NCBI GenBank assembly: GCA_023634235.1
Contig: JAMKCF010000016.1
Location: 5,503,140 to 5,567,139, forward strand
Length of the DNA stretch: 64,000 nucleotides
Reading direction: 5' to 3'
From: Pisaster brevispinus
Taxonomy: Eukaryota; Echinodermata; Asteroidea; Forcipulatida; Asteriidae
The notes beneath the pieces are model-generated. The model was given only the letters and a program-made list of their open reading frames with translations. It had not been told where the DNA came from and ran no database searches. The translations under genes were made by a program, and so were the position numbers. Below, piece after piece: positions 9,301-60,000 of this stretch; the stretch's first letter is position 1, and each line of letters opens with the position of its first letter.

Positions 9301-11425
9301 CAGTCTTGGTATGTAGTTGACTTGTTGACTTGAGTTGAATAGAACTCATGAACTAATGTTCCTGGGCTCCATTTCTCAATGCACTAAGATTCATCTTAAG
9401 ATGAGTTGATCACCATAGTAGTTATTATTATTATTATTAGCTGTTCCGACATAGCAGTCGGAACAGCTATTGTTTTCGTCAGGATTTTTATTTGTTTTTC
9501 TCCTAAAGTCATACTAGGCTTAGTATAAAATAGATAAAATAGTCAGATTATATATCATATTAAAGCTTAGGTCATGAAGTTATAGTAAAATGTAATTAAC
9601 TTAACTTAATTAATTAATTTACTCATTTATAATGACATGAATATTTAATTAGCCAATCTTTAGACCACCATATCTCAAAAAGTATACGTCCGATCATTAA
9701 ACTGTTTTCGATTTTATACTTTTTGGATACTGTATAACTGTTTGCTGGCCTAAAATGCCGGACGACATCACCATGACGTCATTTATTGCGCGTTTTCGTT
9801 CTGTGTACAAAACACATGGCGCTGAAAGTGTAAATGTTTCGACAGTCAAAAACATAATATTTTCAAAACAAGTTAATTGTTAGTTTCCTAAATTACATAA
9901 ACTGTTTTGAAAAGTTAATTGCTTTTAATAAGAGATGTTCTTGGTCATTAAAACTAATCCAAGTAAAATCTTTTCCACGATAATTAACGATTAAGTGACA
10001 AATCGGACACCATGGCTAGCCATGTTGATTGCGCAATCACGGCAAGGTGTTGGAGATTTCCTTGATATTGGATTCCTAACTGGTAGAGGACCCATTGCTT
10101 TGTGCACAGCCCATTCGATTTGTACATGAGCAACACATGTACATGTAATTCCTATGCAGGTTTAGGGTTTTCGTCAGAATGCAGAATTACTTGTGTCCGC
10201 CTAAAATCCCATAGCGTTTGTACACGTTTGTTTCGTTAAGCCTAATATTCTAAAGCGTAAAGATGAAAGAGTTATATCTTACATGTAAATCTAAATGTAA
10301 ATTTTTTTAAAATTCTTATTTAATTAACCACGTGATCTTCATTTGAATATTTAATTAGTTAATCTTTGCAGCACCATATCTCAAGAAGTACACAGCCGAT
10401 TTTTAATCTTTTTTCAGTTATAGACTCCTTGGGCATTGGAGATAAGCCTTGGGAAATCGTGACCCCATGTTGACCTTTACTTCGGGGTCAACTGGAAGTG
10501 GGACCAAATCTCAAGAACTACACAACCGGTTTTCAAACTGTTTTCAGTTATAGACTCCTTGGGCATTGGAGATTAGCTTTGGGAAACCGTGACCCCATGT
10601 TGACCTTTACTTCGGGGTCAACCGAAAGTGGGACCAAATCTGAAAGAACTACACAACCGGTTTTCAAACTGTTTTCAGTTATAAACTCCTTGGACATTGG
10701 AGATTAGCCTTGGGAAATCGTGACCCCATGTTGACCTTTACTTCAGGGTCAACCGGAAGTGGGACCATATCTCAAGAACTACACGACCGTTTTTCAAACT
10801 TTTTTCAGTTATAGACTCCTTGGGCATTGGAGATTAGCCTTGGGTAGGCGTGACCCGATGTTGACCTTTACTGCGGGGTCAACCGGAAGTGGGACTATAT
10901 CTCAAAAACTATACAACCGATTTTCAAACTGTTTTCAGTTATAGACTCCTTGGGCATTGGAGATTAGCCTTGGGTAACCGTGACCCCATGTTGACCTTTA
11001 CTTCTAGGTCAACCGGAAGTGGGACCATATCTCAAGAACTACACAACCGATTTTCAATTTTCTATTAAGTTATAGATCCTTTGAGCATTAAAGATTGAAC
11101 TTGGGTTACCCTGACCCCTTGTTGACCTGAATTTCCGGGACAACCGGAAGTGGGACCAAATCTCAAGTACTACGCACCTAATTTTCAAGTTTATTTCAGT
11201 TATAAACCTTTTGTGCATTGAAGATTAGCCTTGGGTTACCGTGACCCGTGTTGACCTTTACTTACTGATCAACCGGAAACTGGACCATATATGAAGAACT
11301 AAACACCCAATTTTAAATTTCTTTTCAAATATAGACCCCTTGTGCTTTGAAGATTGAACTTGGGTTTAATCAAAGCACAACAAAATGGAACAGCTTTGTG
11401 TTTGTTCACAAACACCTAATGTCTA

Positions 11426-23400: not shown

Positions 23401-26400
23401 TCTTTACTTAAGTTAAGTCCTGGTTTCATAGTGCTGACGATATTCACAATAACAAAAATATTACACAAATTAATCCTGCAGCTGGTGAGCATGGCCAAAT
23501 TTAGGAATTCCTGACAGTAGGTGGTTACCTGGTACTCTGTCTACATCTCTTCATCGGTCGAGGCATGCTTTGGTCTATTGTGTAAATGATACACTGAAGG
23601 GTCTCTCTTTGTTCTGATTTTTACTCCATTTCAAGAAAACCATATAACTTTTTTCAGTGATCATCTTACTTTGGTACTCTTTGATTTACAAGAGCAATAA
23701 TTGAAAATCATGCACCAAACTGTATTATTCTTTGCATCCATCAACATTGTGTAGAGGGTGCTGGAAATGAAAGGTGTGCTAGTTCTTGCTGATCTTGCTT
23801 GACACTGAATGCAGTTACCATGGCAGATCTCGGTACAGCTTAATAAACTATGCTGTAATGTCTAGCATATTTATTACAACTTTTTGATCTTGATGTTTTT
23901 TACTTCAGATTTTGGAATCTTTAAACGAGTTCTTTTCATCCTGAGAACCGAATGCAGTCAAAGTGCTAAACCACTCTATCTTGTGAGTATAGTGAATATT
24001 TATTTGTGTTTCATTATGTGAGAATTTGACTTTTTACTGTACATAAGCATTTTCATAATAAAGGTAAAAGGACTGTAGGGCTTGCCATCTGCAATTAGTT
24101 TGCCTTTTGCCGATGTCTGTGCTTTCCAGTACTCAGAAAAAAAAATCCCTCCTCCACACATTTTGGATGTTCATTTACTCATTAACTTTGAGACTATTTC
24201 TTCTTGTTAGACTATAGACTACAAGGCTTGGCTGGCGACAGGAGGCCAGATTTATTTGTTGCTCCTATACTTCAAATTACCACTGCGTGTTTACCTCCTT
24301 GATGCAAGAGGTCTTCTAATTACCACTGCGTGTTTACCTCCTTGATGCAAGAGGTCTTCTAATTACCACTGCGTGTTTACCTCCTTGATGCAAGAGGTCT
24401 TCTAATTACCACTGCGTGTTTACCTCCTTGATGCAAGAGGTCTTCTAATTACCACTGCGTGTTTACCTCCTTGATGCAAGAGGTCTTCTAATTCTGTCTG
24501 CAATTATTTGGACACTTCCTAGTATGACACCAAAAGTCATTTATATTTGCAAAGTGTGCCACCTACATGTACATGTAAACCCATGCCACAGCATTGTTTT
24601 TAATGTAGGCATGCACCCATCCTTTGATGGTGTTATGTATTGAATGTTTTATGGTGTAGGTGCTTAACACCATCTTTGAGTCCTGAGATGAATGCCATTT
24701 CAAAATTGAAAACAGACATTACATAATTATGTCCCCTTACAAACATCACAAAAGAACTTGAAAAGGTATCGATTGTGTCCTGCCTGTCCAATGAGTGCTT
24801 ACTTTCAAATCCAAGTAAATTATCTACAAGATACTATCTTAAGCTGCCCTGTGTCAGTTTTTACTGTGTCATATCACTAATGGTCAAACTCCATTTACAT
24901 TTATCATGTGACCGGCTGACTTGGTGTAGCAAACCTCCTATGGCAGCTCCATTAGTTGTATGTGAAGATTGGTATCATTACATTATATAACATCACTGAA
25001 TACTTATGATTTGTTTATGGTATTTTAATTTGATTTAGGATCGAATGATTGTTCTCCTCATTGGGAATGCTGTAAACTGGTCTATGTAAGTATATTGCAG
25101 TCACTCTAAGATTGTCAGTATGTATTCAAACATATCACCAACTGACCTCTGGCTCCCAAATGTTTGTGCACATAACATAACTAACCTTACTACTAGATGT
25201 GGACGGCCTAGGGGGAGTAGAAGTAAATCTCAAACATCAAGAAAATAACATACAATGTTGAAGAGAAGGAAAATGGAACACATTTAAGTTATACGATTAA
25301 GTTTTACTAAATGTTAAAAGTTTTTTTTTTAAATAACCAAAACATTTTCATAGAAAAAAAACCCCAAAGCAGTTAAATAACTGGTGCAGGGTGCAATGGG
25401 GGCAGAGTGAAAGAGGGCGCATTTCACTGCTTGCTGCTCATGGACCCCATCTTGCTTTACAGAACAAATTTCATGGATTGTATGGTGTTTGTTATAGCTG
25501 TATTCTACTGTACTAAATGAGTGAGTAAAAGACTCTATAAAAAGACTGTTAACAAATGCAACGCTTTGAGGGGCTTTTTCTGCCCAAACTCAAAACTGTT
25601 GTGTGAAAATGATAAGCACATGAATCCAGTTACATCATTGAACAGGAGGGAAATCAAAGCACTGCCATTGATACACACAACACATGCACAGCTGCTTTGT
25701 CATTGGCTGGACATCTGTACCAACAGTTTATCAACAACTTTTGTCATTGTCTTCTTTTTTGGGGGCCACACATTCTACGTAGTCTAGTGCTTGATTAAGT
25801 CTTCAAAAAGTCCCGGTATATAAGCAGGTTCAGATTTCCATCGAAAGATGTTTGGCTGTAGTTGTCATGAATTTGAATTATCTGGAGTGTTTTTCTGAAG
25901 GAAATTACAACAAGACCGAGTTGAGACATTGCTAACAGCAGAATTGAAGGGCATACCTGTCCTTGATCTTTCCCTATATTGAAAGAGAAGGTTAAGTTTA
26001 TTGGCGTGAAGTGTAGTTTGTACTTCAGCAACAACCATGCAAAAAGCCCTCTAGAAATTCTTCCAGCGTTTTTTTCCAAGGCAGCCTAATTGTTGCGTAA
26101 GAAAATTTAGCTTGCCAAACTAGCTTGCCATAACATATTACAACTGGGTCAAAATAAGTGCATTACCAACAATTATAGTATTCTGTTTATTCTGTTGCAG
26201 AATGATCTATGGTCTTGCCAAGATGCCCAAAGATTTCAACTCATATTTGTTGGCCATTTTTCTTGTCAATCTCCTTTTGTACCTGGCATTCTACATCACA
26301 ATGAAGGTAACATCTTTTTGTTTTGTTAGATAAAATATATGATTCAACAAACTAGGCTAAGCTAGTTCATACATGGTGATAATGGACAGACATTTTTGTA

Positions 26401-34545: not shown

Positions 34546-34932
34546 GTGCAAACAAAAACCCTCAAAGACGCACTTCAAGTAGCGCAACGCGAAGAAGACA
34601 TTTTACAAGCTGAGGCAAATGCAAACTTAACTGCTCATGCGGCTGTGACTACGCAGCAACAACGCGTTGCTTCATTGCAAAGGCCAGCTGGGGAAAATAA
34701 GACGTCAGAGATGAGTATTGACGAAAAGATAGGCAGACTTGAGCAAAAGCTAAATCAAAACATTCAAATTGTTGAAAACCTTGTGCAGTCACTAAGACGT
34801 AGAGATAGAGAATGCTATCAGTGTGGCAAAGTAGGCCATATTAGTAGAAATTGTAGGTTAGGCCATAATAATGTAAAACCTAATGACACTGGTGGTACGA
34901 ACAAACGTAATCCTCAGTCTTCGGAAAACTAG
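34546..34932 (+). pseudogene. Gypsy gag remnant with CCHC zinc knuckle
   Basis: A charged helical stretch (DALQVAQREEDILQAEAN) leads to a CX2CX4HX4C knuckle (CYQCGKVGHISRNC, about 34813-34854), the nucleocapsid RNA-binding motif of retroelement Gag. The reading frame ends soon after it. The matrix/capsid part is absent upstream. Confidence 0.85.
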
Positions 34933-34955
34933 GTCAAGTTGTACATGGGGTCGAC

Positions 34956-35204
34956 GTGCAACTTCCTTCAAAGACCCAAGCAAATAGTATGTTTGCATTT
35001 AGTAATATGTATGGTGTCGCAGTTAAAACGTTAATCGACACAGGTTCATCACATACCGTTTTCCACCCACGGGTTGTCAAATTGTTCCCTAATCAAATGA
35101 AGAAAAAAAAAATTGAAAAGTGCGACATTGCAATAGTTACTGCTGATGGTGCCCCACTTAATGTTCATGGAAAATTTTCAGTGTCATTACAGCTGGAAAG
35201 TTAA
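34956..35204 (+). pseudogene. Gypsy aspartic protease remnant
   Basis: LIDTGSSHTVFHP is the D(S/T)G active-site motif of retropepsins, preceded by the hydrophobic strand typical of the family. The frame stops at 35202-35204. The continuation, with a plausible ILGMDFL motif near 35250, is in another frame, so the domain is broken. Confidence 0.75.
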
Positions 35205-35318
35205 AAACCAACCATGAGGTAATTGTTGCCGACATTAGTCAAGCAGGTATTCTTGGTATGGACTTTTTAAACAGTCACGATAGTGTCCTCCATTTAAGTA
35301 AGGGCAAATTGACAGTAG

Positions 35319-36422
35319 ATGGCGTTAATAGATATTGTGCGAGGAAAATATAACTCACAATGTTGTAGAATTTGTATAGATCAGAATGTAACTGTTCAAC
35401 CAGGGCAAGAGGTTGTTGTTCCTGGTAGAGTGAAGTTAAGAGAGGGTATATATACTTGTTGTAGTGGAATGATTGAACTCACCAGTGACATAATTAGAGA
35501 CAAAGGCATTCTTGTAGCACGTTCCTTTGTTCAACCGAACAATAAGTATGTCCCAGGTTGTACCACCAGATTCACACCAAAGATCAAATTTCGTCAACCA
35601 ATTAGACGTGTTCCATACTACCAGCGCTCTGTTTCTTTTACAGAATCAAATAGAGACTATGTTGAACAAAAATATAATAAGTCCCTCAGAAAGTGCTTGG
35701 TTGTCACCAGTTGTATTGGTTAAGAAAAAAGATAAAACAATTCGGTTCTGTATTGATTACAGAAAACTTAACAATGTTACAAAGAAAGATGCATATCCCC
35801 TCCCCAGAATAGATGACAGTCTAGATGCTCTGTACGGTTCAAATTGGTTTAGCACTTTAGATTTAGCTAGCGGATACTAGCAGGTAGAAGTACACCCAAA
35901 AGACCGCCCCAAAACGGCGTTTTCAGCAGGTACATGTCTTTACGAGTTCAATGTAATGCCTTTGGGCTTTGTAATGCGCCTGCTACTTTTGAGCGTTTAA
36001 TGGAACGCGTTCTTGCGGGCCTTCATTGGAAAACGTGTCTTGTTTACATTGATGATATTATTATCTTTGCAGAAACCTTTGAAGAACATCTCATAAGACT
36101 TAGTACTGTGCTGAACACGCTAGAGAAAGCTGGTTTGAAATTAAAAGCCAGCAAATGTAAATTGTGTCAAACTGAAGTGTCATACTTGGGTTACATTGTC
36201 TCAAAGCAAGGCATTTCGACAGACCCAGACAAAATTCAACGAGTGAGAGAATGGCCTATTCCAACAACTTTAAAAGAAGTTAGAAGCTTCTTAGGGCTAT
36301 GTTCGTATTATCGAAGATTTGTACATAATTTCGCCCACATTGCGGCACCCTTGCATCGTTTGACACAAAAGAATGTCGGATTTGTATGGGACAAAAGTTG
36401 TGAAGAAGCTTTTTATCAATAA
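35319..36422 (+). pseudogene. Gypsy reverse transcriptase, frame-broken
   Basis: Recognisable RT blocks are [38 protein letters not shown] and the catalytic VYIDDIIIF (about 36045). Breaks: a frame change near 35640, a TAG stop directly after LASGY (35878-35880), a frame change near 35965, and a TAA at 36420-36422. Upstream of the RT a linker with RVPYYQRS is still readable. Confidence 0.9.
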
Positions 36423-37096
36423 TTGCGGTCTAACTTGATTTCATCTCCCGTTCTTTGCTACCCAAATTTTGACCAACCATTCATCCTGGATACTGATGCC
36501 AGCAATGAAGGAATTGGGGCCGTTCTCTCACAAGAAATTGATGAAAAAGAACATGTTGTTAGTTACGCAAGTCGTAAGCTAAGTAAGGCAGAACGCAAGT
36601 ACAGTGTAACACGTAAAGAATTACTTGCGGTTGTAACTTGTGTTAAACATTTTCGACATTATTTGTATGGAAGAAAATTCATTGTACGCACCGACCATGC
36701 GTCACTGCGGTGGCTTTTAAACAGCAATCAGGCGGGAGGGCAGATGGCATGGTGGCTTGAGATACTGGGAACATTTGATTTTGAAATTCAGCACCGGCCA
36801 GGACGCAAGCACCAAAATGCTGACGCTCTATCTAGGCGCCCGTGTACTGAATCTGATAACATACCTAATGGAAAATGTTGTGGAGTTTTCTTAGTTACAG
36901 GTTTTGAACCCACTGCCATCCTCAAGGCCCAACGAGAAGACGCAATTTTGCTACCCGTTATTCAGTGGCTCCAGTGTGGTCGTAAAAGTCGACCCCCTGG
37001 TAAAGAAATAAGTGGACTGCCTCGAGAAACAAGGGCCTTGTGGTTCCAATGGGAACAGCTGGTACTAAGTGAGGGTATACTTTATCGTCGATGTAA
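36423..37096 (+). pseudogene. Gypsy RNase H domain, interrupted at 37094
   Basis: DTDASNEGIGAVLSQ, the VSYASRKLS strand, TRKELLAVV and RTDHASLRWLL give the RNase H catalytic acidic residues of Gypsy pol. ADALSRRP closes the tether. The frame runs open up to RRCK, where the Harbinger-like pair is inserted with its TAA target duplication. Confidence 0.9.
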
Positions 37097-37376
37097 AGCC
37101 CTTTTCACACGAGAAAAAAAGAACCAACATTCCTTGCGACGAATTTAACGAGCGCTGAAGTCATCCCACGCCTGACCGCTTTCGCAAGCTTTCACACGAC
37201 ACCAAGTAAAAATGTGACCACGTTCCATGAGACGAGAGTACAGACTTAGCTGGTTACCACTGAACTATAGAGTTTTTGTTCTTAAACAGCGCTATACCAG
37301 TTAAATGATGACGTATGTCGCATGTGCACAGTGTGTCGTCGTCGGTAAAAAATAAACCATGTAAACATTCTTCAAA

Positions 37377-37703
37377 ATGGCTGACACTCACGAAGACGTT
37401 GGGGAGTCCATTCATAATACTATGCCCGTAATATCCTCCAAAAAACGACCGGCAAAGACATCAACCAAAGATAAGAGTAAGAAGGCCAATAAATCTTGGT
37501 GCTACGAGGAAACGATTGCCTTGATAAACATTATGGAGAAGGAAACCACCCAATCTAAAATGGATGGTTTGACCCAAAACGGCCATGTTTGGCGGGAAAT
37601 CGCGGACGAGGTGGCAAATGGTCGCAACGGTGACCAGTGCCCGGTAACGGTGTGTAAACACACAAAGGTCGGCTCCCGAAGGTTCTTCACGCATGCGTGT
37701 TAA
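37377..37703 (+). CDS. Myb/SANT-like ORF of Harbinger-like element, copy 1
   Basis: 108 codons from ATG: an acidic start, a Lys-rich patch (TSTKDKSKKANKSW), then W..EETIALINIMEKE and NGHVWREIADEVA, the Trp-spaced first helices of a Myb/SANT-like (trihelix) DNA-binding domain. The expected final helix (usually a QCxxKWxxL motif) is replaced by GDQCPVTVCKHTKVGSRRFF and a stop. It is therefore a truncated domain, perhaps the first exon of the autonomous element's second gene. In PIF/Harbinger transposons such proteins help the transposase bind the termini. Confidence 0.6.
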   Translation: MADTHEDVGESIHNTMPVISSKKRPAKTSTKDKSKKANKSWCYEETIALINIMEKETTQSKMDGLTQNGHVWREIADEVANGRNGDQCPVTVCKHTKVGSRRFFTHAC

Positions 37704-38259
37704 TACTGCTTTCGCGAGGATTGTCGGTCAATAAACAACGGATCGTTTCACACGAAGGTTTGACTAGATTCCTTGCGAAAAATTACGCTAGCGTAAGATT
37801 TTGTCGGAGGTCGGGACCTACTACAAAATTTCGCAAGGTTTGCGAAAATTTCGCAAGGAATGTAGGCGATGTAAAATATTACTGTTCTTTCACACGAAGC
37901 CCAAATTGTAATTTTTTACAAACAATTGTAAAATTTCGCAAAGAATGTTCGTTTTTTCCGTCGTGTGAAAAGGGCTTTAAAGCCCTTTTCACACGACGGA
38001 AAAAACGAACATTCTTTGCGAAATTTTACAATTTTTTGTAAAAAATTACAATTTGGGCTTCGTGTGAAAGGACAGTCATATTTTACATCGCCTACATTCC
38101 TTGCGAAATTTTCGCAAACCTTGCGAAATTTTGTAGTAGGTCCCGACCTCCGACAAAATCTTACGCTAGCGTAATTTTTCGCAAGGAATCTAGTCAAACC
38201 TTCGTGTGAAACGATCCGTTGTTTATTGACCGACAATCCTCGCGAAAGCGGTATTAACA

Positions 38260-38556
38260 CGCATGCGTGAAGAACATTCGGGAGCCGACCTTTGTGTGTT
38301 AACACACCGTCACCGGGCACTGGTCACCGTTGCGACCATTTGCCACCTCGTCCGCGATTTCCCGCCAAACATGGCCGTTTTGGGTCAAACCATCCATTTT
38401 AAATTGGGTGGTTTCCTTCTCCATAATGTTTATCAAGGCAATCGTTTCCTCGTAGTACCAAGATTTCTTGACCTTCTTACTCTTATCTTTGGTTGATGTC
38501 GTCGCCGGTCGTTTTTTGGTGGACTCCCCAACGTCTTCGTGAGTGTCAGCAGCCAT
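38260..38556 (-). pseudogene. Myb/SANT-like ORF, copy 2 (inverted)
   Basis: Same protein as copy 1 on the opposite strand: SWYYEETIALINIMEKE and NGHVWREIADEVANGRNGD are readable. A small in-frame deletion removes part of the N-terminus, and a TAA (TGTTAACA) interrupts the end after CPVTVC. Confidence 0.65.
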
Positions 38557-38836
38557 TTTGAAGAATGTTTACATGGTTTATTTGTTACCGCAACACACTG
38601 TGCACACGCGACATACGTCATCATTTAACTGGTACTAGCGCTGTTTAAGAACAAAAACTCTATAGTTCAGTGGTAACCAGCTAAGTCTGTACTCTCGTCT
38701 CATGGAACGTGGTCACATTTTTACTTGGTGTCGTGTGAAAGCTTGCGAAAGCGGTCAGGCGTGGGATGACTTCAGCGCTCGTTAAATTCGTCGCAAGGAA
38801 TGTTGGGTTTTTTTTTCTCGTGTGAAAAGGGCTTAA

Positions 38837-40126
38837 GACAACAAACAGGTCAGTAGTTTGTCAGTTGGTAGTCCCTTCTAACATGCAAAAATAAATACTT
38901 AAACAGAGCCATGATGGACGAACAGGTGGCCATCTGGGCCAGAAACGAACCTTTAGCAAAATCCAAAGGAAATTTTACTGGGTCGGTTACCGACGTACCG
39001 TAGATGTGTGGGTTAATGGTTGTCAATCTTGTCACAAGCACGAAAAGCGCCAAAGAAGAAATTTAGAGCACCACTACAACTAGCTCCCACTGGCGCTCCT
39101 TTCGAACGCATTGCATTAGACATAATGGGCCCATTGCCCGAAAGTAAAAACGGTAATAAGTACATACTAGCACCTCCATGATACTAGTAATCATGGACTA
39201 TTTTACGAGATGGTCGGAAGCCTATGCACTACCCAATCAACAAGCAGAAACAGTAGCTTAAGTGTAGTAACTCAATTCATCTGAAGATATGGTGTACCTA
39301 GCAAAATTCATAGTGATCAAGGAACAAATTTCGAATCCAAATTATTCACTAAAGTTTGTGAGATGTTGGAAATTGATAAGACTCGCACAACAGCCTACCA
39401 TCCCCAATCAGACCAAAGTGACTGGGATGAGCATTTGCCTTTTGTCTTAATGGCTTATAGGGCATCCAATCAAGAAACTACAGGGGCAACACCAAATAGT
39501 TTATTTTTTGGACGTGAAATTAATTTGCCTCTAGATGTACTTGCAGGACCAATTCAAGATGCACAAGTACAGCAAATCCAACCCTACGCGATGGAGGTCA
39601 AGTCCAAGCTGGAGGATGCGTTTGAGACGGCAAGGAAATATGCAGGAGGAGAACAACGACGTCAGAAGAAACTTTATGATACACGGATGTATGGGAGTCT
39701 CTACAAAAGTGGTGACAACGTTTGGCTTTATTGCCCGGAGAGATTCGTTGGACTTTCTCCAAAACTAGGAAGTCACTGGAAGGGCCCCTGTACAATTATC
39801 AAGAAATATTCTGATGCGAATTACCTCATCAAAGTGCCAAATGTATCCCGTACCCGTCAAGTTGTGCACTTCGACAGGCTGAAACCATGTACTCTTCGTG
39901 AAGATGACAACATCTATGAGCCCATTGATCAACATACTGCGTCAAACTCTGCTAACATCGAACTACCAAGCTGGAATGACAACGAAGTCCCCACCGTTAC
40001 TGGCCATATCGACGGAGACTTCGAAACACAAACGAACAATGAGGAAGATGCATCTTTCTGTAATAAACCAACTCGAGTTGGAAGAATAACCCGTCCTCCG
40101 TTTTGGATGAAAGACTTTGTGGTGTA
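38837..40126 (+). pseudogene. Gypsy integrase remnant: H2C2 zinc finger, damaged core, GPY/F-like end
   Basis: After the insertion the frame resumes with a stop, then an HHCC zinc finger (HDGRTGGHLG ... CQSCHK, ~38909-39040), a stop at ~39073, the core motifs ERIALDIMGPL and IHSDQGTNFES (two catalytic Asp), and TAYHPQSD. The block that normally follows HPQSD and carries the third catalytic residue (Glu) is absent: the sequence runs directly into SDWDEHLPFVLMAYR. Downstream is KLGSHWKGPCTIIKKY (GPY/F-like module), then HFDRLKPC and a stop at 40126. Confidence 0.88.
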
Positions 40127-40460
40127 ACTGGTCCATGCCCAATTAGTTTTCTGGTGGTGTCCTGTATAGTAGTTGTTTTTTTGGTTTATCCACACACGAC
40201 AGATTACAAAAGGCAATAATCTAAAAAAAAAAATAAAAAAAAAACCACACTCAAATTCATAATAATTCTACATTGGTGATTGTTACCGTTAAACGTAACG
40301 GGGTAGTTTTGAAGTACATTTGATATTTATTAATTTGTGACCCAAATTATTACTTTTTGCTTCGAAAAGTACAGAGAACATGTATATTTTTTGTTGATGT
40401 TGTTATAAGCTGTTAGTAATTTAAATTAAGAATTATTTCGACACGGGACGTGTCTTTTTT

Positions 40461-43220: not shown

Positions 43221-43363
43221 TAAGGCCGTGTCCGAAACGGCGACTTCGGCTACAGGGAGAGCTACGGCTAGATCGCGCGCGTCTGCCTATTCTTCAACAC
43301 TGACAGAAACGCGCTGATCTAGCTCTAGCTGTAGCCGAAGTTGCCGTTTCGGACACGGCCTAA
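43221..43363. mobile_element. MITE with GGCCGTGTCCGAAACGGC ends and TAA target duplication
   Basis: The left end GGCCGTGTCCGAAACGGCGA (43224) and the right end GCCGTTTCGGACACGGCC (to 43360) are inverted repeats; pairing continues through CTTCGGCTACAG. TAA flanks both sides (43221-43223 and 43361-43363). The length and duplication fit a Harbinger-type MITE. Confidence 0.75.
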
Positions 43364-43647
43364 AGTTGAATCCAGTGACCAAGTTGAGAGACTCGGCGCG
43401 TTTTATATTTGTATTGCGCCGCGCCTGAAACCGGTGTAGCCCATAGATATAGAATATAATACCTAGATCGGCCGCGCGTACAATACGCTGGTTCAGCCTG
43501 GGCGCTGACATTAGTCACGTGCTTGAGGCAACGCGCAACTTTTGAAACGGTGTGACGAGACGAAGTAAACCTCTTTATTTCCAGCTCGTCTTTATTTCCA
43601 GCTATTTCCGAATAACGTTTGCCGAGCATTCTAATGGTGTAACTGAA

Positions 43648-46600
43648 ATGGTGAATAATATTGTGCAGCAGCTGTCTGTAATAGCCGAGGAAAAGAACCT
43701 GGAGGACAATCTCTCCCTAATAAACTGACATACCATGATGATGTGTAAGTACACTCATCATAGAATTATAATGACTGCACTATAGTTGGGGTCAATGCTA
43801 GGCCTAATTTGTTGAGGTTGGCTGATGGTATAGGTCTAACATCAGTGTTTATTTTCGTTGTTGAGGTTAAACCAACGGTTCTTTTCAGGAAAAAAAAAAT
43901 TAAATTAATGATTTAGAGAGCTTATTGACACTAACGGCAACGCAAACCGTACTGAATTGATAGTCCTATACCAATCATATAGATAGGCTTGCGTTCCAAC
44001 CAAACCCAAGACGCATTTTTTCGAGTGGATGATAGGCTATTGTCATAATTTGAATTCATACTCGTTACAGACATTCAGCGCTAATTTGCAGAGTTATTTT
44101 CAAGTGTTAAACACAAACAAGAAAATAATAAAACTCACATTAACCCATAGGTTTTTTTCAACTCAGATTTTCCCCATAAGGACACTAAGAGGATGAGCAT
44201 TTGGTTGCAAAGATTAAAGAGATTACCAAATGGCAGACCTTGGCACCCAACCAAAAATTACAGGTTATGCAGCGACCATTTCTCTGCCGAGTGTTTTGAG
44301 GTTCGGTGGGGCAAAACATACCTTCGCGATAACGCCTCGCCATCATTGTTTGAGAACTACCCAAGTCATTTAAAGCATGTAAGATACAAATGACTAAATA
44401 TGACATTTAATTTTATTTATTTCATTATAGTTAAACGAATGGTTAATTGCTTTTAAAATATGATTGTTGTTTAAAATAACCGAGATTGTATCATGAATTT
44501 AATTATTACAAGCGGTTGTGAAAAGAAATTACAAGATTCAAACGTGCCTCGTCACTAGAAATAGGTAGGCTAGTGTGTGTAAACAGAGCTTATCAAACAA
44601 TATTTTGTTATTCTCGCCGCTCGTTAACATAGATTTTTTCTCTCTTTCCTCCTGAAAAGTGTGCAATACAAACAAGAACATAATAAACCTCGCATTAATT
44701 TCCCTTTTAAAAATATGTAGAGTAGATGTGGTCTCTTCGAAGATGGCCTGAATCCCCCAAAGAAGACTAAAAGGCCAGCCATCAAGGACGAAACTTCACT
44801 TGCCCCCTCACCAAAAGCAGGTCATCCAAACGACCACGAGTACTCACGGCCACCAGAGATGGACCTACCACAAAGTGTGATAGAACAAATCACGAGTCTG
44901 AAAAAAGATTAAAAAGAGCTCAAACGTACAAGATAGCCGTTTATCCAAAAAGCTCTCATCAGTGAAACAAGTTGTGCTTTCTTTGAAGAAAGAATGCCTC
45001 GTCACAAGCGACAGGGCTGAGGCGATGGAGTCGAATTTCTCCAATTTGCAGTTGGAATTCCTTGATAAGAGGCACGACTCGTCAGGAGATAACCAGTGCT
45101 ACAGGGATGAGATGAAGAAGTTCTCCCTCTATCTTTACTACTGTCCCTCAAAGCGTATGAGTTTGTCAGGAAAGAGATCAAGTTGCCGTCCGTACGTACT
45201 GTGAGGAGATGGTTAGCTACAACACCCTGCTACCCTGGCTTTACTAAAGACGCCTTGGATGCCATTGAAGAAAAGCATGCATCTTCTGATCACGAAACCC
45301 TTGTTTGCCTCATGGTGGATGGAACGAGCATCCGAAAGCAGGTTGAATTTGATGGATCTTCTTACGTAGGGTACGTTAAATTAAGTCTTTACAAAATGCC
45401 ACTTTGTTAAAATGCAAATTTTGTTCACTAGTAAGATAGTTTGATTAGGCCTACTTGCCATCATATTCTCAGTGCTGCTCAAGGTTAAGTAACTGTAATT
45501 CCCCCCTCTTCTAAACAGATACGAAAATCTCGGCTTTGGAAACATCAACTGTTGTCCTGCTACTGAATGCATAGTTCTGATGGCAGTTGGAATGAATGAC
45601 AATTGGAAACTTCCAATTGGATACTTTGCTGTAGCGAAAATGTGCGCTGAAACACAAGTGCGACTGATCACAGAGGCCTTAGTTCTGTTGTGGGATATTG
45701 GAGTGACAGTAGTGTCATTAACTGGTAAGTTTACTACTATATAATAAATCAACCGAGGGATGGCATGGCAATGTTACAGTTTTTATACCAACATCTCGTT
45801 GTCCACAGGTGAAGGATTGAGTGCGAATCTTGCAACAGCAAAGCTCCTTGGAGTTGTCTTAGACCCCCCTCATAGTATGCGAACGTGGTTTCCACATCCA
45901 TGTCATCCGCTGAGAAAAGTGTGGTACATACTCGATGCCTGCCACATGCTCAAACTCATGCGCAACTTACTTGCTTCTTGGAAAGTCATCTTGGATGGAG
46001 AAGCCAACTCATATGGTGAGCTTGACTTTTTTTTCCATTTTGTGTAACCCACATTCCCTCCACCACATTCCCTCCACCATACAAACTAAATCGCACGTTA
46101 TTTTTTGAAATATCCCTTTTTTTTCAATATAGTGTGTTGGCAGTTCATTGAAAACCTTCATCCAACCCAAGATGCAGAAGGGCTCCGAGCAGCAAACAAG
46201 CTCCGTTCAGCACACATACAGTGGCAAAACCAAAAGATGAAAGTGTCATTGGCCGCACAGACAATCAGCAACTCAGTGGCAACAAGTCTAGAGTTTCTGA
46301 GAGATCTGGGTCAACCAACGTTTCGAGGCTGCGAGGCAACTACGAAGTTCCTTCGAATTATTGACAGGTAAAGTCCTGCTTTCGTCATTATGGAAAACTG
46401 AAACGGATTTCCTTAACTTATGTTTCGATCCACTCTGTGTAATTTATATTACATTTGTATGCTTTCAGATTGTTTGATTTCTGCAACACAAGAAATCCCT
46501 CTGCAAAAGGTTCCAAAGAACCCCTAAAGCTCACCAACTTGGCGTCATGGCGACCATTCATCGAGAGGGCTAGGCTGTACCTGATGAACTTGAGGGACAT

Positions 46601-47759
46601 CAACGGTATTCCCATAATAGATACACGAAAGAAGACGGCACTGGTCGGTTTTATTGCTGATATTCAGTCCATCAATGGTATCTTTCAAGACCTATGTGAG
46701 GGTCCGCAGCCCAAACTGAAGTACGTCATGTTAAGTATTTAAAAAAAAACAATATTGTAACAATTGTAATAAGATTTAAATATGTGTCTCGTTACATCCC
46801 ATTGATGTAAAGTATATCTGGCGGCAATGGAAAAGTATGGAAAATGCAGGTAACTGTATGCATGTAATTTGTCCAGGTATTTGTTGACTTACAAGATGAG
46901 CCAGGACCATTTAGAGCTTTTCTTCGGTGCTATCAGAGGTAGAGGAGGGCACAACAACAACCCACCTGTTGCCCAGTTCAGGTGAGTATGTAAAATAATG
47001 ACAAATATTTCGTGGAGGGGAGGGAAAGTGGCTGTGTTTTGTATGTATTGGCACTCTTGAGTTGTATACTGATTTGATTTTACTAAATTCTGTCCCACAG
47101 ACGAGCGTACCGACAGCTCCTCATGTGCCACATCAGTCCAGCATCAAACACAAACTCAACGGTACAAGATGACACGACCCTACTGTCTCTAACCCCAGCA
47201 TCCAATGTCATCACAACCATATCTGGAGTACCTCCTGTACTCAGTGAGTTCAGCTGCAACGTGGTTGCCTACATAGCAGGTTACGTAATAGGAAAAATCT
47301 TAAAATCAATCACCTGCACCGAAATGCATGGAGGCTCTCGTCAAACTTCCAACACATGAGCAATATGACAGGCATCTCTATCTGATTCAGCTACGGGATA
47401 ACGGGGGCTTGATATACCCATCAGGTGACGCCATGGCTGTCTGCAAAGCTTCGGAGAGGGTGTTCCGGATGTACAGTGGTACCACACCGTCACCTATGTC
47501 CAACCTTATGACTACCATGATATGCAGAGCAGCCCAAGATATGATTGGGAGTGGTGTGTTTTTGTCATCACAACACACCCTTGATCCATCTATTTCCTTC
47601 CTCCATGATCCATCACATGGAGAGAGCCTGATAAGCAGTATCGCTCGCCAGTACCTTCGGGTCAGATCGTATGACTTCGGCAAAAAGATAACAGAAGATC
47701 TTCAAAGCCAGCGAGTACGAAGCCTGTATTCGAAATTGGTTCTGTTTAAAGGGCAATAA
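43648..47759 (+). pseudogene. P-element/THAP9-like transposase gene, nine exons, frameshifted
   Basis: Exons: ~43648-43736, ~44165-44378, 44721-45370, 45519-45724, 45809-46015, 46133-46367, 46469-46720, 46877-46981, 47101-47759. The N-terminal THAP zinc finger is recognisable: YCAAAVCNS (first Cys pair), FPHKDTKR, W..RP...YRLCSDHF (Cys/His pair). A coiled-coil-like Lys-rich region follows, then LPSVRTVRRWL, LMVDGTSIRKQV (RNase H-like strand with Asp), DACHMLKLMRNLL and DHLELFFGAIRGRGGHNNNP, all P-type transposase landmarks. Exons 4-8 join in frame. Breaks: exon 1 (TAA just before YCAAAVC; phase mismatch to exon 2), ~44910, ~45145 and ~47320. Poly(A) signals follow at 47828-47845. It is probably dead, unless some breaks are sequencing errors. 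Confidence 0.88.
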
Positions 47760-48029
47760 ATGGAACCAGTGTGTGAGACCTGTGTTTATGTACACACACA
47801 TAAATTGTGTTCAAGTTTAAAATTTCGATAAAATAAAAATAAAGTATATACACTGACAAAGTGCCATGCCTTTTTAATTGTTTGGTTCATGTTTTAATTT
47901 TCATGAGCCCTGCTTTTTGTGATGTGTTTTTTAATGTCTGTAATTTTCGTCTAACCTTGTAAGTTTTTGATTTTGTTTTACACTCAGTTTTCTGTTTTGA
48001 TTCATGGCTTTTCTTATTGCTCTGTATTT

Positions 48030-48147
48030 TACTATTTTACTATTTTACTTTTTACTATTTGTACACAGGGCCCTTAGGGATAGCAGTTGTAAAACTGATA
48101 AGGCTACCCTGTCTAAATAAAAAAATAAAAATAAAATAAACAAATAA
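48030..48147 (+). repeat. 3' end of a LINE with A-rich tail
   Basis: GTACACAGGGCCCTTAGGGA, then AGGCTACCCTGTCTAAATAA and an AAATAAAAATAAAATAAA tail have the form of CR1-like LINE 3' ends common in marine invertebrates (from memory). It is inserted inside the P-like element on the same strand. Confidence 0.5.
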
Positions 48148-48174
48148 GTACAGGCTATTCTAAACGTCACTCTT

Positions 48175-48365
48175 TTGTTCTTTCTTTCTTTCTTTGTGTG
48201 TGTGTGTTTGTGTATTTGTGTGTTTTGTAGGTTTTGTTTGTTTGTGTGTTGTGTTTGTTTGTTTTCTTGTTTCTGGGGGTGTTTGTTTGTTTGTTTGTTG
48301 GTTGGTTGTTGGGGTGTTGGGGTGTTTGTTTGTTTGTTTGTGTTCTTTGTTTCTTTGGGGTTTTT
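48175..48365. repeat. TTTC / GT / GTTT low-complexity tract
   Basis: (TTTC)n, (GT)n and repeated TTTGTTTG/GGTGTTTG runs. Long Cys/Phe/Val or Lys/Thr/Asn frames over it are artefacts. Confidence 0.9.
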
Positions 48366-49444
48366 TCTTTGCCGAGAATTTCAAAGTAGGCCTACATGTT
48401 GTGTAGTAGAAATACGGACGTAGAATTTTAGAGCCTCGGACATTTTTGCTTGACTGAATTTGAGTTTTGGTGATTTCAGTGAGAGGGAGAGTGATACCCT
48501 TGCAGATTAATAAGAGTTAGATGTGTACAGAAAATCTGCAAGATTTGTTGTACATACATGGGTTGAAATTGAAGCAATTGAAGCTTCTTTCCTTTGCATG
48601 TCGTAACATTCTTCAATTAATTTAAAACCCGAGAGCATGTAAAAATGTTACTAGTTATTGCTTCATTTGTAGAAGTGTATTGTAGGGAAATTCTATTGTA
48701 GCTGCCCACGAAAATGTTCAGTTGATTGTAAAAGAAAATTGAAACAACTGCAACATAGGCCTACGGTGCAAATAGTGTAAATAGTTTTTGTTTTCTTAAA
48801 GCAGTTTTAAACAACGATATATGGTTTTCTATTTACTTGTGAATAGTGCAAGCAATTTCTGTTTACGTGTACATTTTAAGACCTATATGTAAGCTTAGTT
48901 TGGACGCATTGCCCTTGAATGGCAGGCTAGGTCGCAGCTGACCTGTAATTTTGAGACTGTCTTTATAATATTACAGTTAATAAAGTTTTTTTTGCCCAAT
49001 TAATTGCCCCAAAACATTTTTTTTTTATAGCGTCAAAATGGCTTATTAAAACTCTAAACATGAATGTTGGGCCAAGCAACTTAACGATGTTCTCTTTTTA
49101 TTTCATTATTTCATTGACAAAAGGATTGTTGGATTGGACATATTCACACAACATTATTTTCCACCGGTCTTCGTTTTTACAGAATAAAACCTCAGATCAG
49201 CTGTGTGGTGTGCTGTATCTATCAATCTGCTCAGTACCATCTTGCTCGCATAATTAATAATGTGTCAATCTATACCCTAAAATAATTGTCAATAACACGA
49301 AATTGTAAATATTTTTATTCTGCGCGTTGCCTCAAGCACGTGACATTTTACTGCGTCCATGTTTTTTTTTCTACACAGGCAGTGGAGCACGCGCACGCAC
49401 GTCCGATCTAGGTATTGTAATTATTCTATATCTATGGTGTAGGC

Positions 49445-51674: not shown

Positions 51675-52020
51675 CATTGGCAGTCAGGTTGGCTCAGTGG
51701 TTTCTGTCCCTGTGGACCCCGGTTCGATAACCGGACCAGAGCCTTGCTTGTGGATTGGGTTTTCAGTCCCTACCTGGCTGACTGTGTGGGTTTTCAGTAG
51801 CTACCTGGCTGACTTTGTGGGTTTTCAGTCCCTACCTGGCTGACTGTGTGGGTTTTCAGTCCCTACCTGGCTGACTTTGTGGGTTTTCAGTCCCTACCTG
51901 GCTGACTGTGTGGGTTTTCAGTCCCTACCTGGCTGACTGTGTGGGTTTTCCCCAGGGGTTTTCCTTCCACTTCTAAAACTTAAATTCTTCATTGTCTTCT
52001 TTACAAAAAGTTGGTGTGAT
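51675..52020 (+). repeat. tRNA-derived SINE, family C, expanded by an internal minisatellite
   Basis: The head CAGGTTGGCTCAGTGGTTTC (A box) and GGTTCGATAAC (B box) are tRNA-like. Six 31-bp units (GGGTTTTCAGTCCCTACCTG...) run from 51757 to 51942. The normal body then resumes as GGGTTTTCCCCAGGGGTTTTCC. Units alternate CTGTGT and CTTTGT variants. Confidence 0.75.
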
Positions 52021-55000: not shown

Positions 55001-56265
55001 TCATAAGTGATGCTTTGAACAATGCCATGCCGATGAATAATGTAATCTTGGAGTGTGTGAGCAATTTCACTACTGTATAAAGCTGTACTTTTCAATTTTA
55101 AAATATCATATCACTCAGACTGAAATTCTTAAAAATATACATGGAATGATATTGTTTTAAACGCGCCACGTCTCAGTCTAAACTTAGTGTCAGTAACTTT
55201 TACTTCTGTATCGGTATTTTTTTTTAAACGAAGGTGGATTGAAGGAAGAGGCTGCCAGATGCTTGCTCCCCCTTATTTTCACATGTAAATTAATAAACAA
55301 ATAAGTAAAGCAAAAACTAAATTTAAAACTGCTCAGAAATAATGTGTAAAACGCCTCTGAAATGCACCAGAGTGCAGAAGGTTTCTTTGCAACATCTCCT
55401 GAATGTTGCTTTATATAATGTATGTTGCCCTTCCCCGTATCTCCACCATCATCAAAAAGTCTCACATTTGGTGAGCTGCTCATGTTTTCCACCATATTGA
55501 GCTAGTCAAGCCCTTCTCTTGAAGCCCAATGCCCCTCATCATAGAGGTCATCTCAACATGACCTTGAAATCATCAATTGAGTTTGAAACTGGTCTCTGAC
55601 GCGGTTCATCTCTCTCAAATGCTTGACAAGGTCAGATGGGCACAACTCGTCAAGTCATCACCAAACTGAATGAACAAATGAATGAATGAAAAAAGATGAC
55701 ATCATAAATTTTGTTTTTTAAACATGTTCAGTAGTTGTGGAGTGATGAGTTAGTCTAAACTTTGTATATTAAAATTATTTTATCTGTCTGGTAATAAAAC
55801 CAAGGAACACTTACAAGTGCAAACATGTAGACCTGACAATGTAGAGGAGATGTTGAAGCATTCTTAGGGGCCATTCAAAATTTTCAATGTTTTAAAATTT
55901 CGATTTTTTTTTCCAAAGTACTTGACCCACCCACCCACCCCTAATTTCGATTATAAAACATTGATTTGTTATGCAGTATTAAAAATAAAACTACATGTGG
56001 TTTGCATTTTTCCCTTCAACCTACATTTTTCATCAGTTTGAAAGGTCTGGTTTGGTTCATGTAATAAACCATTTTGAGATATAGTGGACACAAAAAGTAC
56101 TATGACACTTAATTAGGTTGTGGTAAATTTGTCTGTACACACCCAAACCAAACGGTGCACTGCTATAGTGTCGACCATAATCTCAACACTGACTAATTTT
56201 CAGTGTGGGAATATATTGATGCAATCATACAATAAACAAATATTACTTGATGTATTGCAGTCTAG
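52021..56265. other. Intergenic DNA, nothing recognised
   Basis: AT-rich sequence. The longest frame (minus strand, 54270-53893) has no domain-like composition, splice context or homology I recognise. A short polyA/polyT-rich stretch lies at 52.6-52.9 kb. Confidence 0.4.
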
Positions 56266-57044
56266 AGCCCTTTTCACACGACGGAAAAAACGAACAATTT
56301 TTTGTAAAAAATTACAAATTGGGCTTCGTGTGAAAGGACACTAATATTTTACATCGCCTACATTCCTTGCGAAATTTTCGCAAACCTTGCGAAATTTTGT
56401 AGTAGGTCCCGACCTCCGACAAAATCTTACGCTAGCGTAATTTTTCGCAAGGAATCTAGTCAAACCTTCGTGTGAAACGATCCGTTGTTTATTGACCGAC
56501 AATCCTCGCGAAAGCGGTATTAACACGCATGCGTGAAGAACCTTCGGGAGCCGACCTTTGTGTGTTTACACACCGTTACCGGGCACTGGTCACCGTTGCG
56601 ACCATTTGCCACCTCGTCCGTGATTTCCCGCCAAACATGGCCGTTTTGGGTCAAACCATCCATTTTAGATTGGGCAGTTTCCTTCTCCATAATGTTTATC
56701 AAGGCAATCGTTTCCTTGTAGCACCAATATTTCTTGGCCTTCTTACTCTTATCTTTGGTTGATGTCTTCGCCGGTTGTTTTTTTGAGGATATTATGGGCA
56801 TAGTCTTATGAATGTGCACACGCGACATACGTCATCATTTAACTGGTACTAGCGCTGTTTAAGAACAAAAACTCTATAGTTCAGTGGTAACCAGCTAAGT
56901 CTGTACTCTCGTCTCATGGAACGTGGTCACATTTTTACTTGGTGTCGTGTGAAAGCTTGCGAAAGCGGGCAGGCGTGGGATGACTTCAGCGCTCGTTAAA
57001 TTCGTCGCAAGGAATGTTGTTTTTTTTCTCGTGTGAAAAGGGCT
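56266..57044 (-). mobile_element. Harbinger-like non-autonomous element, copy 3 (single), TSD TAG
   Basis: The ends AGCCCTTTTCACACGA and TCGTGTGAAAAGGGCT match the pair at 37.1-38.8 kb. TAG flanks both sides (56263-56265 and 57045-57047). It is shorter (779 bp) than copies 1 and 2 because of deletions near both ends of the interior. Confidence 0.88.
56520..56828 (-). CDS. Myb/SANT-like ORF, copy 3
   Basis: Same protein as copy 1 from about residue 15 onward (KTMPIISSKKQPAKTSTKDK, YWCYKETIALINIMEKE, NGHVWREITDEVANGRNGD, ending GSRRFFTHAC). The original start region is lost in a deletion, so the frame opens in unrelated codons. The end, KHTKVGSRRFF, is identical to copy 1, so the truncated C-terminus is a family feature, not a local accident. 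Confidence 0.5.
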   Translation of the reverse strand: MSRVHIHKTMPIISSKKQPAKTSTKDKSKKAKKYWCYKETIALINIMEKETAQSKMDGLTQNGHVWREITDEVANGRNGDQCPVTVCKHTKVGSRRFFTHAC

Positions 57045-57047
57045 TAG

Positions 57048-60000
57048 GAGATCTTTTGAAATTCTAACTTGCCACCTGTATGAAGATGCTAATTGCTATT
57101 GCTACTTTGCTGTCTGTTAAATGTATAGTTTGAATTTACATGCAGACAAAGTTAATTGGAAAGAAGACCACGCGCGAAACACAAATTAATAATTAGATAT
57201 ACAAAAAAATCAATTGTTCCAAACTACATTAAAATTGTATTTACTGTATGTGCCCTCTCTAATTGACTAAGTGTTTCCTTGTGACGTGCTTAGTTTGCTG
57301 TTTAACCTTAATGATAGTATTAATAATAGCATGGAGCTATCCTTTTTATAACGCCATGATAGTAGTGTTTGTCCTACATGTATGGCTGAACACAAAGTTG
57401 TTGATGTTGATACCTGGTAGTGTAAAAACTAATGATGACCAAAGTTGCTTCTCTGGAGCAGCTTAGTAGCCTTCTACATGTACATAGCGATACATCATAT
57501 GACACGATATGAACACGTTAATTACAGATTAATCAGTCGTAAGCAATGCTAAACAATTGTGGAATAAGCATGCCTTTGAACATGTTGAAAGTGTCCAGAG
57601 ATTCTGTAGCTTCAATTTGATCATGGCCTGTTTGTGAATTGTGACTGATCATGGAGGTACACTGTAATGGACTGATTCACATCAACATTTTTGCTTATGG
57701 TGAGTGTTGTGGTAGACCTTTTTTGGAAGTTAGTTCCGGTTTCTTTTGTAGGGTGAAGGACTGTGTGGTACTGCTGGGACAGTGTCAAGTAAAGCAGCTT
57801 TACATTGAAGACTTCTTAATACCATTAAGAGGACAAAAGCCAGTTGTGACTAACCACATCAATCAATTAATACTCTTTTTGTCATTAGTAAAAGCTGCTA
57901 TTGTAATGTAATCTATAATGCCAAGCAGTTAATTAGGCTATGGGCATGATGGGTGCACAATAACATTGTTGGTGGTCCAGCCAGTGTGCATGCCTCAACG
58001 AATGACCAAGAGTATGAGTAATCAGCATCTTTTATACATGTAGTGTCTCAAACCTCCTCCCCCTCACTGTTAATGGAATAACCTTTTTGACTGTCAGGAC
58101 TGTAATCAAATGCTGTATTGAACTACAGCCTTGGTTGGGAAAGAATGCTCTGTGGTACAAATGCTACAATGGGTATGAACCAGGAATATAAGACTCCATC
58201 TACACAGTGTAGGTGGTGGTAGTCATCTATTATTTACCTGTTTACTCAGCTATTTATCGAAAACAACATGTTTTTCCACTGATGAGAACTGCTGTGTTTA
58301 TTGCTTGGTGTTTAGTGTTTAGTCAAAGGATATTGCTACTGTGGAGAATATTTAGTACTGAGAATTATCGCAACATAATCCTGGATAATGTACTTTCTAC
58401 TTAAATGTTAAATGGCTTCCATCTTAAAGGTAAGACTGGTAAGATTAAGTTAACCGAATTAACACATGGTATACATTGTACAGTCATTGAGAAAGGATAG
58501 CCCAAAGTGTCCCCAGTTATTACTAACTGGATCCCCAGTTGTTACTAACTGGAAAGTTTGCAAGATACCCTCCTGTACTTGTTAGCAATGTGGGTTTAGC
58601 TGGCTTAGTCAGTTGATGTCTGCAGGTCTTTTAACACCTACTCAAGTAGGTCAGACTACTTTATTTACTGTTCAATTTATTGCTGACCTCCACTCACCTT
58701 CTCTGCTCTCTCTCTCTCTCTCTCACTCTCATACTGTGGATACAGGGTTTATGCTGAATTCAGTGTCTTGTTAGTTGATACACTCATCTTAGTTTTACTG
58801 TGCGAACAATCTTAAAACAAACATGGTTTATTATTGTTTGGATTGGTTTCGAAAAGCACATCAAGCACCAGATATAGTTGATGCATGGAGGTTACCTCCA
58901 TGGTTGATGTTTCTGAAAAAAGGGAAATGTGGAATTGTAATTTGTATTTATCCCAATGATGATCTATAGAATCTGTTGGTTCATTGGTTTTAATAAAATG
59001 TGCAAGTTTCTTAGAAAAAAGCAATTCACTTCACTGCACCATTGATTCCAAAAAGTCAAGATTCTATGTAAAGAGGGCATAATTTGTTCTTAGCAGAATT
59101 CTGGATTGGCATTTTTAAATTAATAGTTTAGCTGAAGTATTTTCTGTTTTTAGGTTCTTGAGACACTTCAATCCAAATCAATTTTTGATCCAAGGAGGTT
59201 TTTTATGTGATGGTACAATATTGTTTCGTTCATATCTTGAAATTGTCAACAAAGTGTTGAATAAGTAGTGTTTGGTTTGTATGTTCTAATAACTAGAGTG
59301 TTGTTCAGGCAATACAAAATGAGAGGAGACTTTGCCAAAGCTCTTGCAACTGACAGGATTGTGGGCAGAATTAAACAAGTTGCCCTGGGTAACTAGAACC
59401 AGCTTTAAACTTTGCTCCTACACGTACAAAAGCATTCAAATTAAGACCGGTTGATTAGTTTTTGAAGACTTGTTTTACATACAACTGCACATAACAATGA
59501 AAAATTACTGTATGTACATGCATTACAATACATGTACAGTGAACAAAATGAGGAGAATCGGGCAGTGTCTGCATTAAATTACTTCAGCTTTTGGCTATGG
59601 CTTCCCAGCCGTAGCCACTGCCAAGCCATCTGTTTAGATATGGCCTTACTTTCTCTTTCCCAATACTAAAGTAAGAGTATCAATCCCTTCTGTCTTACTT
59701 ATCACTTACAAACAGGAACATTTCAATTTGTTGAAATAGTAATATGAAAACATGTCCTTTTTAAGTCTGTGACTCATGTACTAACCATTTAGCAATACCT
59801 GTAGCTGTTTCTTGACATCTAGTTGACAGGATTTGATTGGTGTTATCTGAGGCCACTGATACACTGTGTTTGTGATGATGGGCTGAATGAACTTAGCAGC
59901 CTTTTGATATGATGTTTTGTTAAATGTTAGTCAAACACCCACTAATAGTTTTATAATCTTCTAGCAGATCATTGTAGTTTTATTCTGCAAGCCCCCCCCC

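Follow-up and report, generated by a model that had tools for sequence, protein, structure and literature searches.

A degenerate long P element in the genome of the sea star Pisaster brevispinus, its miniature relatives and a sister family with a predicted complete gene

P elements with 8-bp target-site duplications and with internally deleted forms or miniature inverted-repeat transposable elements (MITEs) have been described in Drosophila, Anopheles and zebrafish (PMC7776569, PMC1562414, PMC10983969). The P element of Drosophila melanogaster is 2.9 kb long, with 31-bp terminal inverted repeats (TIRs), subterminal inverted repeats, unequal end spacing and a transposase that combines a THAP finger, a helix-turn-helix (HTH) and an RNase H-type domain (PMC7776569). 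The zebrafish element Pdre2 has 13-bp TIRs beginning CATA, 12-bp subterminal repeats, spacers of about 400 bp and a THAP9-type transposase (PMC10983969, PMC7776569), and Anopheles gambiae carries long P elements and P-derived MITEs with TIRs of 27-31 bp (PMC1562414). Human THAP9 is a host gene with conserved catalytic D, D and E residues in its RNase H-like domain (PMC8230255), and THAP genes with a P-transposase domain have been reported in a sea cucumber (PMC13228809). Here we analyze a 64,000-nt stretch of the sea star Pisaster brevispinus (GenBank assembly GCA_023634235.1, contig JAMKCF010000016.1, positions 5,503,140 to 5,567,139 of the forward strand; hereafter “the window”, numbered from its first letter), in which positions 43442-49436 are very probably a degenerate long copy of a cut-and-paste DNA transposon of the P superfamily.

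The sea star element, whose family we call A to distinguish it from a diverged family B described below, resembles Pdre2 in a TIR that begins CATA, in subterminal inverted repeats, in its 8-bp duplication, in a THAP9-type transposase and in having internally deleted relatives. Unlike Pdre2, however, it has TIRs that measure about 38 bp (in family B, 47 bp), and its perfect subterminal inverted repeat of 24 bp starts at distances of 72 bp (left) and 92 bp (right) from the ends. With Drosophila P it has in common the 8-bp duplication, the TIRs and subterminal inverted repeats, the unequal end spacing and the THAP, HTH and RNase H-type parts of the transposase, but it is 6 kb long, its gene has nine exons and the D-D-E site of family A is altered. 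Long elements, P-derived MITEs and 8-bp duplications are likewise features of Anopheles gambiae, although the TIR lengths differ and that host is an insect. The likeness to human THAP9 lies in the catalytic D, D and E of the RNase H-like domain, whereas the sea star element is multicopy and has ends. Among the titles and opening lines of abstracts listed by searches of an open-access library, none describes P-element ends in a sea star; Repbase and subscription journals lay outside this scope, and a prior record is possible.

The element is 5,995 bp long. Its terminal sequence CATAGATATAGAATA matches at 15/15 positions at 43442-43456 (+) and 49422-49436 (-), in inverted orientation, and no further match with up to three mismatches occurs elsewhere in the 64-kb window, where about 3.3 would be expected by chance. 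The two ends align over about 34 bp with a 4-bp gap, then diverge, then rejoin at the 24-bp perfect inverted repeat, which is enclosed by a 39-nt repeat with 82% complementarity. Exact matches between the 150-bp ends reach 24 nt, against maxima of 11 nt in 500 simple shuffles of the ends and 16 nt in 448 random window pairs. The parts of the two ends are as follows.

43434..43441, no strand: left target-site octamer GTGTAGCC, matching the right octamer at 7/8, at length 8 only
43442..43479, plus strand: left TIR; this end is common to family B at 96% over 51 bp
43514..43537, plus strand: left copy of the 24-bp subterminal inverted repeat, which holds CACGTG and TGAGGCA
49321..49344, minus strand: right copy of the 24-bp subterminal inverted repeat
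49395..49436, minus strand: right TIR, 4 bp longer than the left TIR
49437..49444, no strand: right target-site octamer GTGTAGGC

At all other lengths from 2 to 11, the two flanks agree at four positions or fewer. A reading of the letters alone (the original prediction) had claimed P-element-like ends, a 24-bp perfect internal inverted repeat and an 8-bp target-site duplication matching at 7/8; the terminal sequence is indeed inverted at both ends, the 24-bp repeat lies at exactly the positions it gave, and the octamers pair at no other length. We also considered TNNGGCA, which we take to be a THAP1-type site, as a THAP-binding site in the ends. It occurs once per 150-bp end, inside the 24-bp repeat, and remains a lead only, because the window holds 102 occurrences, fewer than the expected 121, and the motif is absent from the matching stretch of family B. 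Just outside the element, a short palindromic repeat at 43223-43361 ends 80 bp from it, and 54 bp of this repeat recur at 98% near another copy (L060).

The original prediction proposed that copies elsewhere in the genome should share these ends and carry differing 8-bp flanks. We searched the same assembly (549.7 Mb in 512 contigs), scoring 40 of 253 candidate places for the left end and 40 of 129 for the right; the copy numbers given here are lower bounds. At the 39 other left-end places scored, homology begins at query positions 2-10 (predicted first base, 9), and in 31 of them it stops at query 104, that is, at 43537, the inner edge of the 24-bp repeat. At the right end, 32 of 39 other places stop at query 137-139 (49436-49438; predicted last base, 137), three extend to 141-145 and four stop earlier. 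Since 24 of the right-end places are absent from the left-end list, there are at least 64 places including the window (allelic contigs not merged).

These places were analyzed in two sets. The first comprises 41 loci, the window plus 40 drawn from every one of the other 39 left-end places, among which L004 and L042 stand for a single place; L001 and L024 were left out, the former being the window copy and the latter coinciding with L008. In this set 25 copies are two-ended, and their octamers match at 8/8 in 15, at 7/8 in four (window included) and at 4/8 or less in six. The second set, all 24 further places, yields nine two-ended copies, with 8/8 in three, 7/8 in one, 6/8 in one and 3/8 or less in four. 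Over the pooled 65 loci, 34 copies are two-ended, of which 18 match at 8/8, five at 7/8 and 11 worse. Flanks that match exactly at lengths of 5, 6, 7, 9 or 10 were found in 0/25 copies of the first set and 0/9 of the second, and a between-copy control in the first set gave 8/8 in 1/600 pairs and 7/8 in another 1/600. The proposed pattern was therefore recovered: copies share their ends, and the 8-bp flanks differ between copies and match exactly within 18 of the 34 (at 7/8 in five).

Position 1 of the duplicated octamers tends to be G, and position 8 to be C. Across 16 different 8/8 octamers (fourteen from the first set, that of a second long copy, L053, and that of family B) the information content is 2.55 bits, versus a maximum of 1.68 in 1,000 random sets; with 19 octamers it is 2.53 bits, versus a maximum of 1.35 in 2,000 random sets. 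The 8/8 case at L029, ATAATACC, lies inside the end of another copy and was excluded from the preference sets, while being counted among the 18. At L017, L019 and L029 the terminal 22 bp, CATAGATATAGAATATAATACC, is tandemly repeated at one end; the 8/8 octamers of L019 stand outside the outer copy of this unit, and in L029 ATAATACC flanks the inner copy. The pattern is as if P elements insert into the ends of other P elements.

Most two-ended copies are short: 24 of the 34 measure 318-360 bp and are P-MITEs. In ten that we compared, one end matches the left end of the window copy at 95.8-99.0% over 96-97 bp. The other is similar to the right end of that copy, at 76-83% over most of its length in eight and only in part in L012 and L033. 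Both arms of the 24-bp repeat are present with 0-4 mismatches in 4/4 MITEs checked, and the same stretch occurs in other copies. Longer deletion derivatives measure 636 bp (L006), 1,144 bp (L003) and 1,542 bp (L007). In L060, an internal deletion joins 45053 to 47472, removing most of the catalytic region; the outermost left end of this copy was not found.

Between the ends of the window copy lies a gene of nine exons with GT/AG borders, running from 43648 to 47759.

43648..43744, plus strand: exon 1, first half of the THAP finger (C-x4-C), with a frame break that lies after the ATG and before the first Cys
44167..44378, plus strand: exon 2, second half of the THAP finger; PF05485 at E 1.4e-12 on the joined pieces of exons 1 and 2
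44721..45370, plus strand: exon 3, coiled-coil-like part (by eye), HTH (Tnp_P_element) and first catalytic Asp; two frame changes
45519..45724, plus strand: exon 4, N-terminal part of RNase H; PF21787
45809..46015, plus strand: exon 5, Glu, not Asp, at the second catalytic position; DACH motif
46133..46367, plus strand: exon 6, GTP-binding insertion domain; PF21788 at E 2.6e-30
46469..46720, plus strand: exon 7, end of the insertion domain; weak PF21788 tail at E 0.13; aligned to 6p5a
46877..46981, plus strand: exon 8, catalytic Glu (SQDHLELFF); PF21789 at E 6.4e-18
47101..47759, plus strand: exon 9, C-terminal part; stop TAA at 47757-47759; one frame change near 47.32 kb

The translated exon pieces match five Pfam domains (THAP, Tnp_P_element, TNP-like_RNaseH_N, TNP-like_GBD and TNP-like_RNaseH_C); exon 9 alone has no Pfam match. 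The combination of a THAP finger, a P-type HTH and an RNase H fold with a GTP-binding insertion is present exon by exon in the window, and present also in family B, and the nine-exon gene with THAP finger and P-transposase blocks that had been predicted is readable. The alignment to Drosophila P that the original prediction had called for places the spliced reading on the transposase structure 6p5a at E 5.2e-26. A protein search, which scored the 7,996 candidates sharing most words, returned 57 relatives, the top one at 39% identity over 81% of the query. Those named to species come from an octocoral, ticks, beetles and a fish, clades that we assume from the species names. In a tree of 47 rows, which predates family B and leaves out 11 of the 57 relatives as short or long-branched, the window protein falls in no well-supported group, and among viral contigs no relative was confirmed. 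Beyond the coding region, the 3' part of the element contains, at 48070-48150, a stretch like what we presume to be the A-rich 3' tail of a LINE, and 287 bp at about 47859-48145 are present in the window copy and absent from L053.

The transposase gene of the window copy is broken. Its frame changes after the ATG at 43648, before the first zinc Cys is reached, and again near 44.9, 45.15 and 47.32 kb. In the alignment to 6p5a, D230 and E531 are retained and the position of D303 is a Glu; at this position the 57 relatives have Asp in 56 cases and Gly in one. The [C/D](2)H motif after the second Asp (PMC8230255) is present as DACH, its D being found in 55/57 homologs and its H in 56/57. Changing D303 of Drosophila P to Cys leaves about 10% of excision activity (PMC8230255), and the change from D to E might by itself entail a loss of activity. 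The D-D-E triad is incomplete in both the window copy and L053, with E at the second position, and is complete in family B; we read the failure as that of inactive copies, not as a sign of another superfamily. The statement in the original prediction that all architectural parts are preserved is accordingly right for the ends and wrong for the transposase, whose frame is broken and whose second catalytic residue is changed.

In a genome search with exons 5-9 that scored all nine candidates, the finds were limited to two long copies of family A, a single 3' fragment and the diverged family B. The long copy outside the window, L053 (C14:6656944-6662142; 5,199 bp), is flanked by GTACAAAC on both sides (8/8) and is 96.7% identical to the window copy over 4,795 aligned bases, and the two have no flank in common. 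Both long copies carry Glu at the second catalytic position (2/2), and the frame change near 45.15 kb is present in 3/3 copies that cover the site (window, L053 and L042). In L053, moreover, Asp replaces the third catalytic Glu. To judge from these sequences, the Glu and the 45.15-kb frame change look as if they predate the dispersal of the long copies, and two insertions at different targets with two common defects are most simply explained if the copies moved after the defects arose, and hence in trans.

Family B, 64-79% identical by segment to the exon DNA of the window family, offers a candidate source. One of its elements, at C2:8784003-8789942, spans 5,940 bp between flanking copies of GTCTGTAT (8/8); its TIRs are perfect over 47 bp, and its gene is predicted to be complete. 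Eleven exons can be joined, an in-frame GT/AG pair existing at each of the 10 junctions, into a frame of 888 aa with a single stop at its end; as this splicing is a prediction that considered only in-frame, stop-free junctions, the frame is open partly by construction. Where a junction offered several options, we preferred the one that continued the family alignment best, and in one case this meant passing over the pair with the highest score. The predicted product contains THAP, Tnp_P_element and three TNP-like domains, with THAP9_C just under the cut-off, and has D, D and E opposite D230, D303 and E531 in the alignment. The octamer of the C2 element recurs on small contigs in L056 and L057, which probably represent that very insertion; L055, L058 and L059, by contrast with the C2 element, are broken or incomplete. 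The left end of family B is 92-96% identical over 52-53 bp to the left-type end in nine of the ten MITEs compared, and 88% identical over 75 bp to that of the remaining one.

The frame changes appear one or two bases long, as would suit assembly errors in a gene that is really intact, but the Glu is common to two independent loci, one exon-3 frame change is common to three, and 14 exon matches of a SIDT1-like gene in the same window are free of frame changes (the match at 25039-25095 meets a stop at its edge, in a part already covered by the overlapping next match). We therefore consider assembly error very unlikely. Nor can we give much credence, beyond the very slightest, to a domesticated host gene of THAP9 type with inverted repeats that are incidental: the domain order is that of THAP9, introns are present and P-domain THAP genes have been reported in a sea cucumber (PMC13228809), yet the frames are broken, TIRs and octamers flank the gene, and the ends are multicopy with differing octamers, whereas such a gene would be expected in single copy without TIRs or target duplications.

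The family would have moved by the P mechanism, in which the THAP finger and HTH of an active transposase hold the element ends, and its RNase H D-D-E site, with the GTP-binding insert, cuts and rejoins them 8 bp apart. Both long copies and the MITEs would have been moved in trans, either by the transposase of family B or by an intact source of family A that the assembly did not yield. We put at about even chances that an intact family-A transposase, now lost or unassembled, moved family A and its MITEs with family B uninvolved. The MITEs have family-A-type ends with the 24-bp repeat or a close form of it, which family B lacks in full; on the other hand, the search with exons 5-9 recovered no such intact source, and Glu in both long copies means that the source of these two was already changed. 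More tentatively, we propose a three-tier P system, in which the family-B transposase may move a sister family that was dead (Asp to Glu) before its dispersal, together with the MITEs of that family, by way of the outer inverted repeat; the two families are almost alike in this repeat, over about 50 bp, although they differ by about 30% in their coding DNA.

Several observations weigh against the main reading, that of a degenerate P element whose family moved in trans. In 11/34 two-ended copies the octamers reach 6/8 at best, and at 31/65 loci no pair of ends was obtained. Ends were accepted at up to three mismatches, a level with about three chance matches per 64 kb, so that a few weak ends may be chance, and a locus with several possible end pairs was scored by its best pair, which biases slightly toward matches. 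Four MITE copies (L011, L017, L020 and L028) have about 40 bp in common beyond one end, and another repeat may contain them or carry them along. As to movement in trans, it is based on two or three long copies; the exon-1 and exon-9 breaks of the window copy are open in L053, which has stops of its own and a lost zinc Cys. Of the 24-bp repeat, finally, family B preserves no more than the GTCACGTGCT core (10 and 5 mismatches over the 24 positions), and so may not recognize family-A ends.

The neighborhood of the element in the window includes the SIDT1-like host gene at 2352-29273 (+), with fourteen exon matches, most like Asterias rubens at 74-97% per exon; for five joined exon pieces the identity is highest with Asterias (92%), followed by Patiria (87%) and Acanthaster (81%). 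These matches place the host close to Asterias, though it is probably a species other than A. rubens. A 1.74-kb near-perfect, foldback-like palindrome at 37096-38834 (94% to its own reverse complement) lies within a region of Gypsy-like open reading frames (34546-40127, named by eye), and parts of a second copy of it occur at 56263-57049. Tandem arrays are found at 10373-11355 (130-bp units), 24270-24493 (43-bp) and 51756-51950 (31-bp).

In the literature examined, P-element ends have been defined in insects and zebrafish. An echinoderm genome now offers a natural transposase gene predicted to be uninterrupted, together with MITEs, both ends, the length of the duplication and a preference in the choice of target, and with these it can be tested directly whether ends are cross-recognized and what the subterminal repeat does. 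What gives the sea star system its value is that intact-looking, dead and miniature P elements occur in it as a full set, in a host that is neither insect nor fish.

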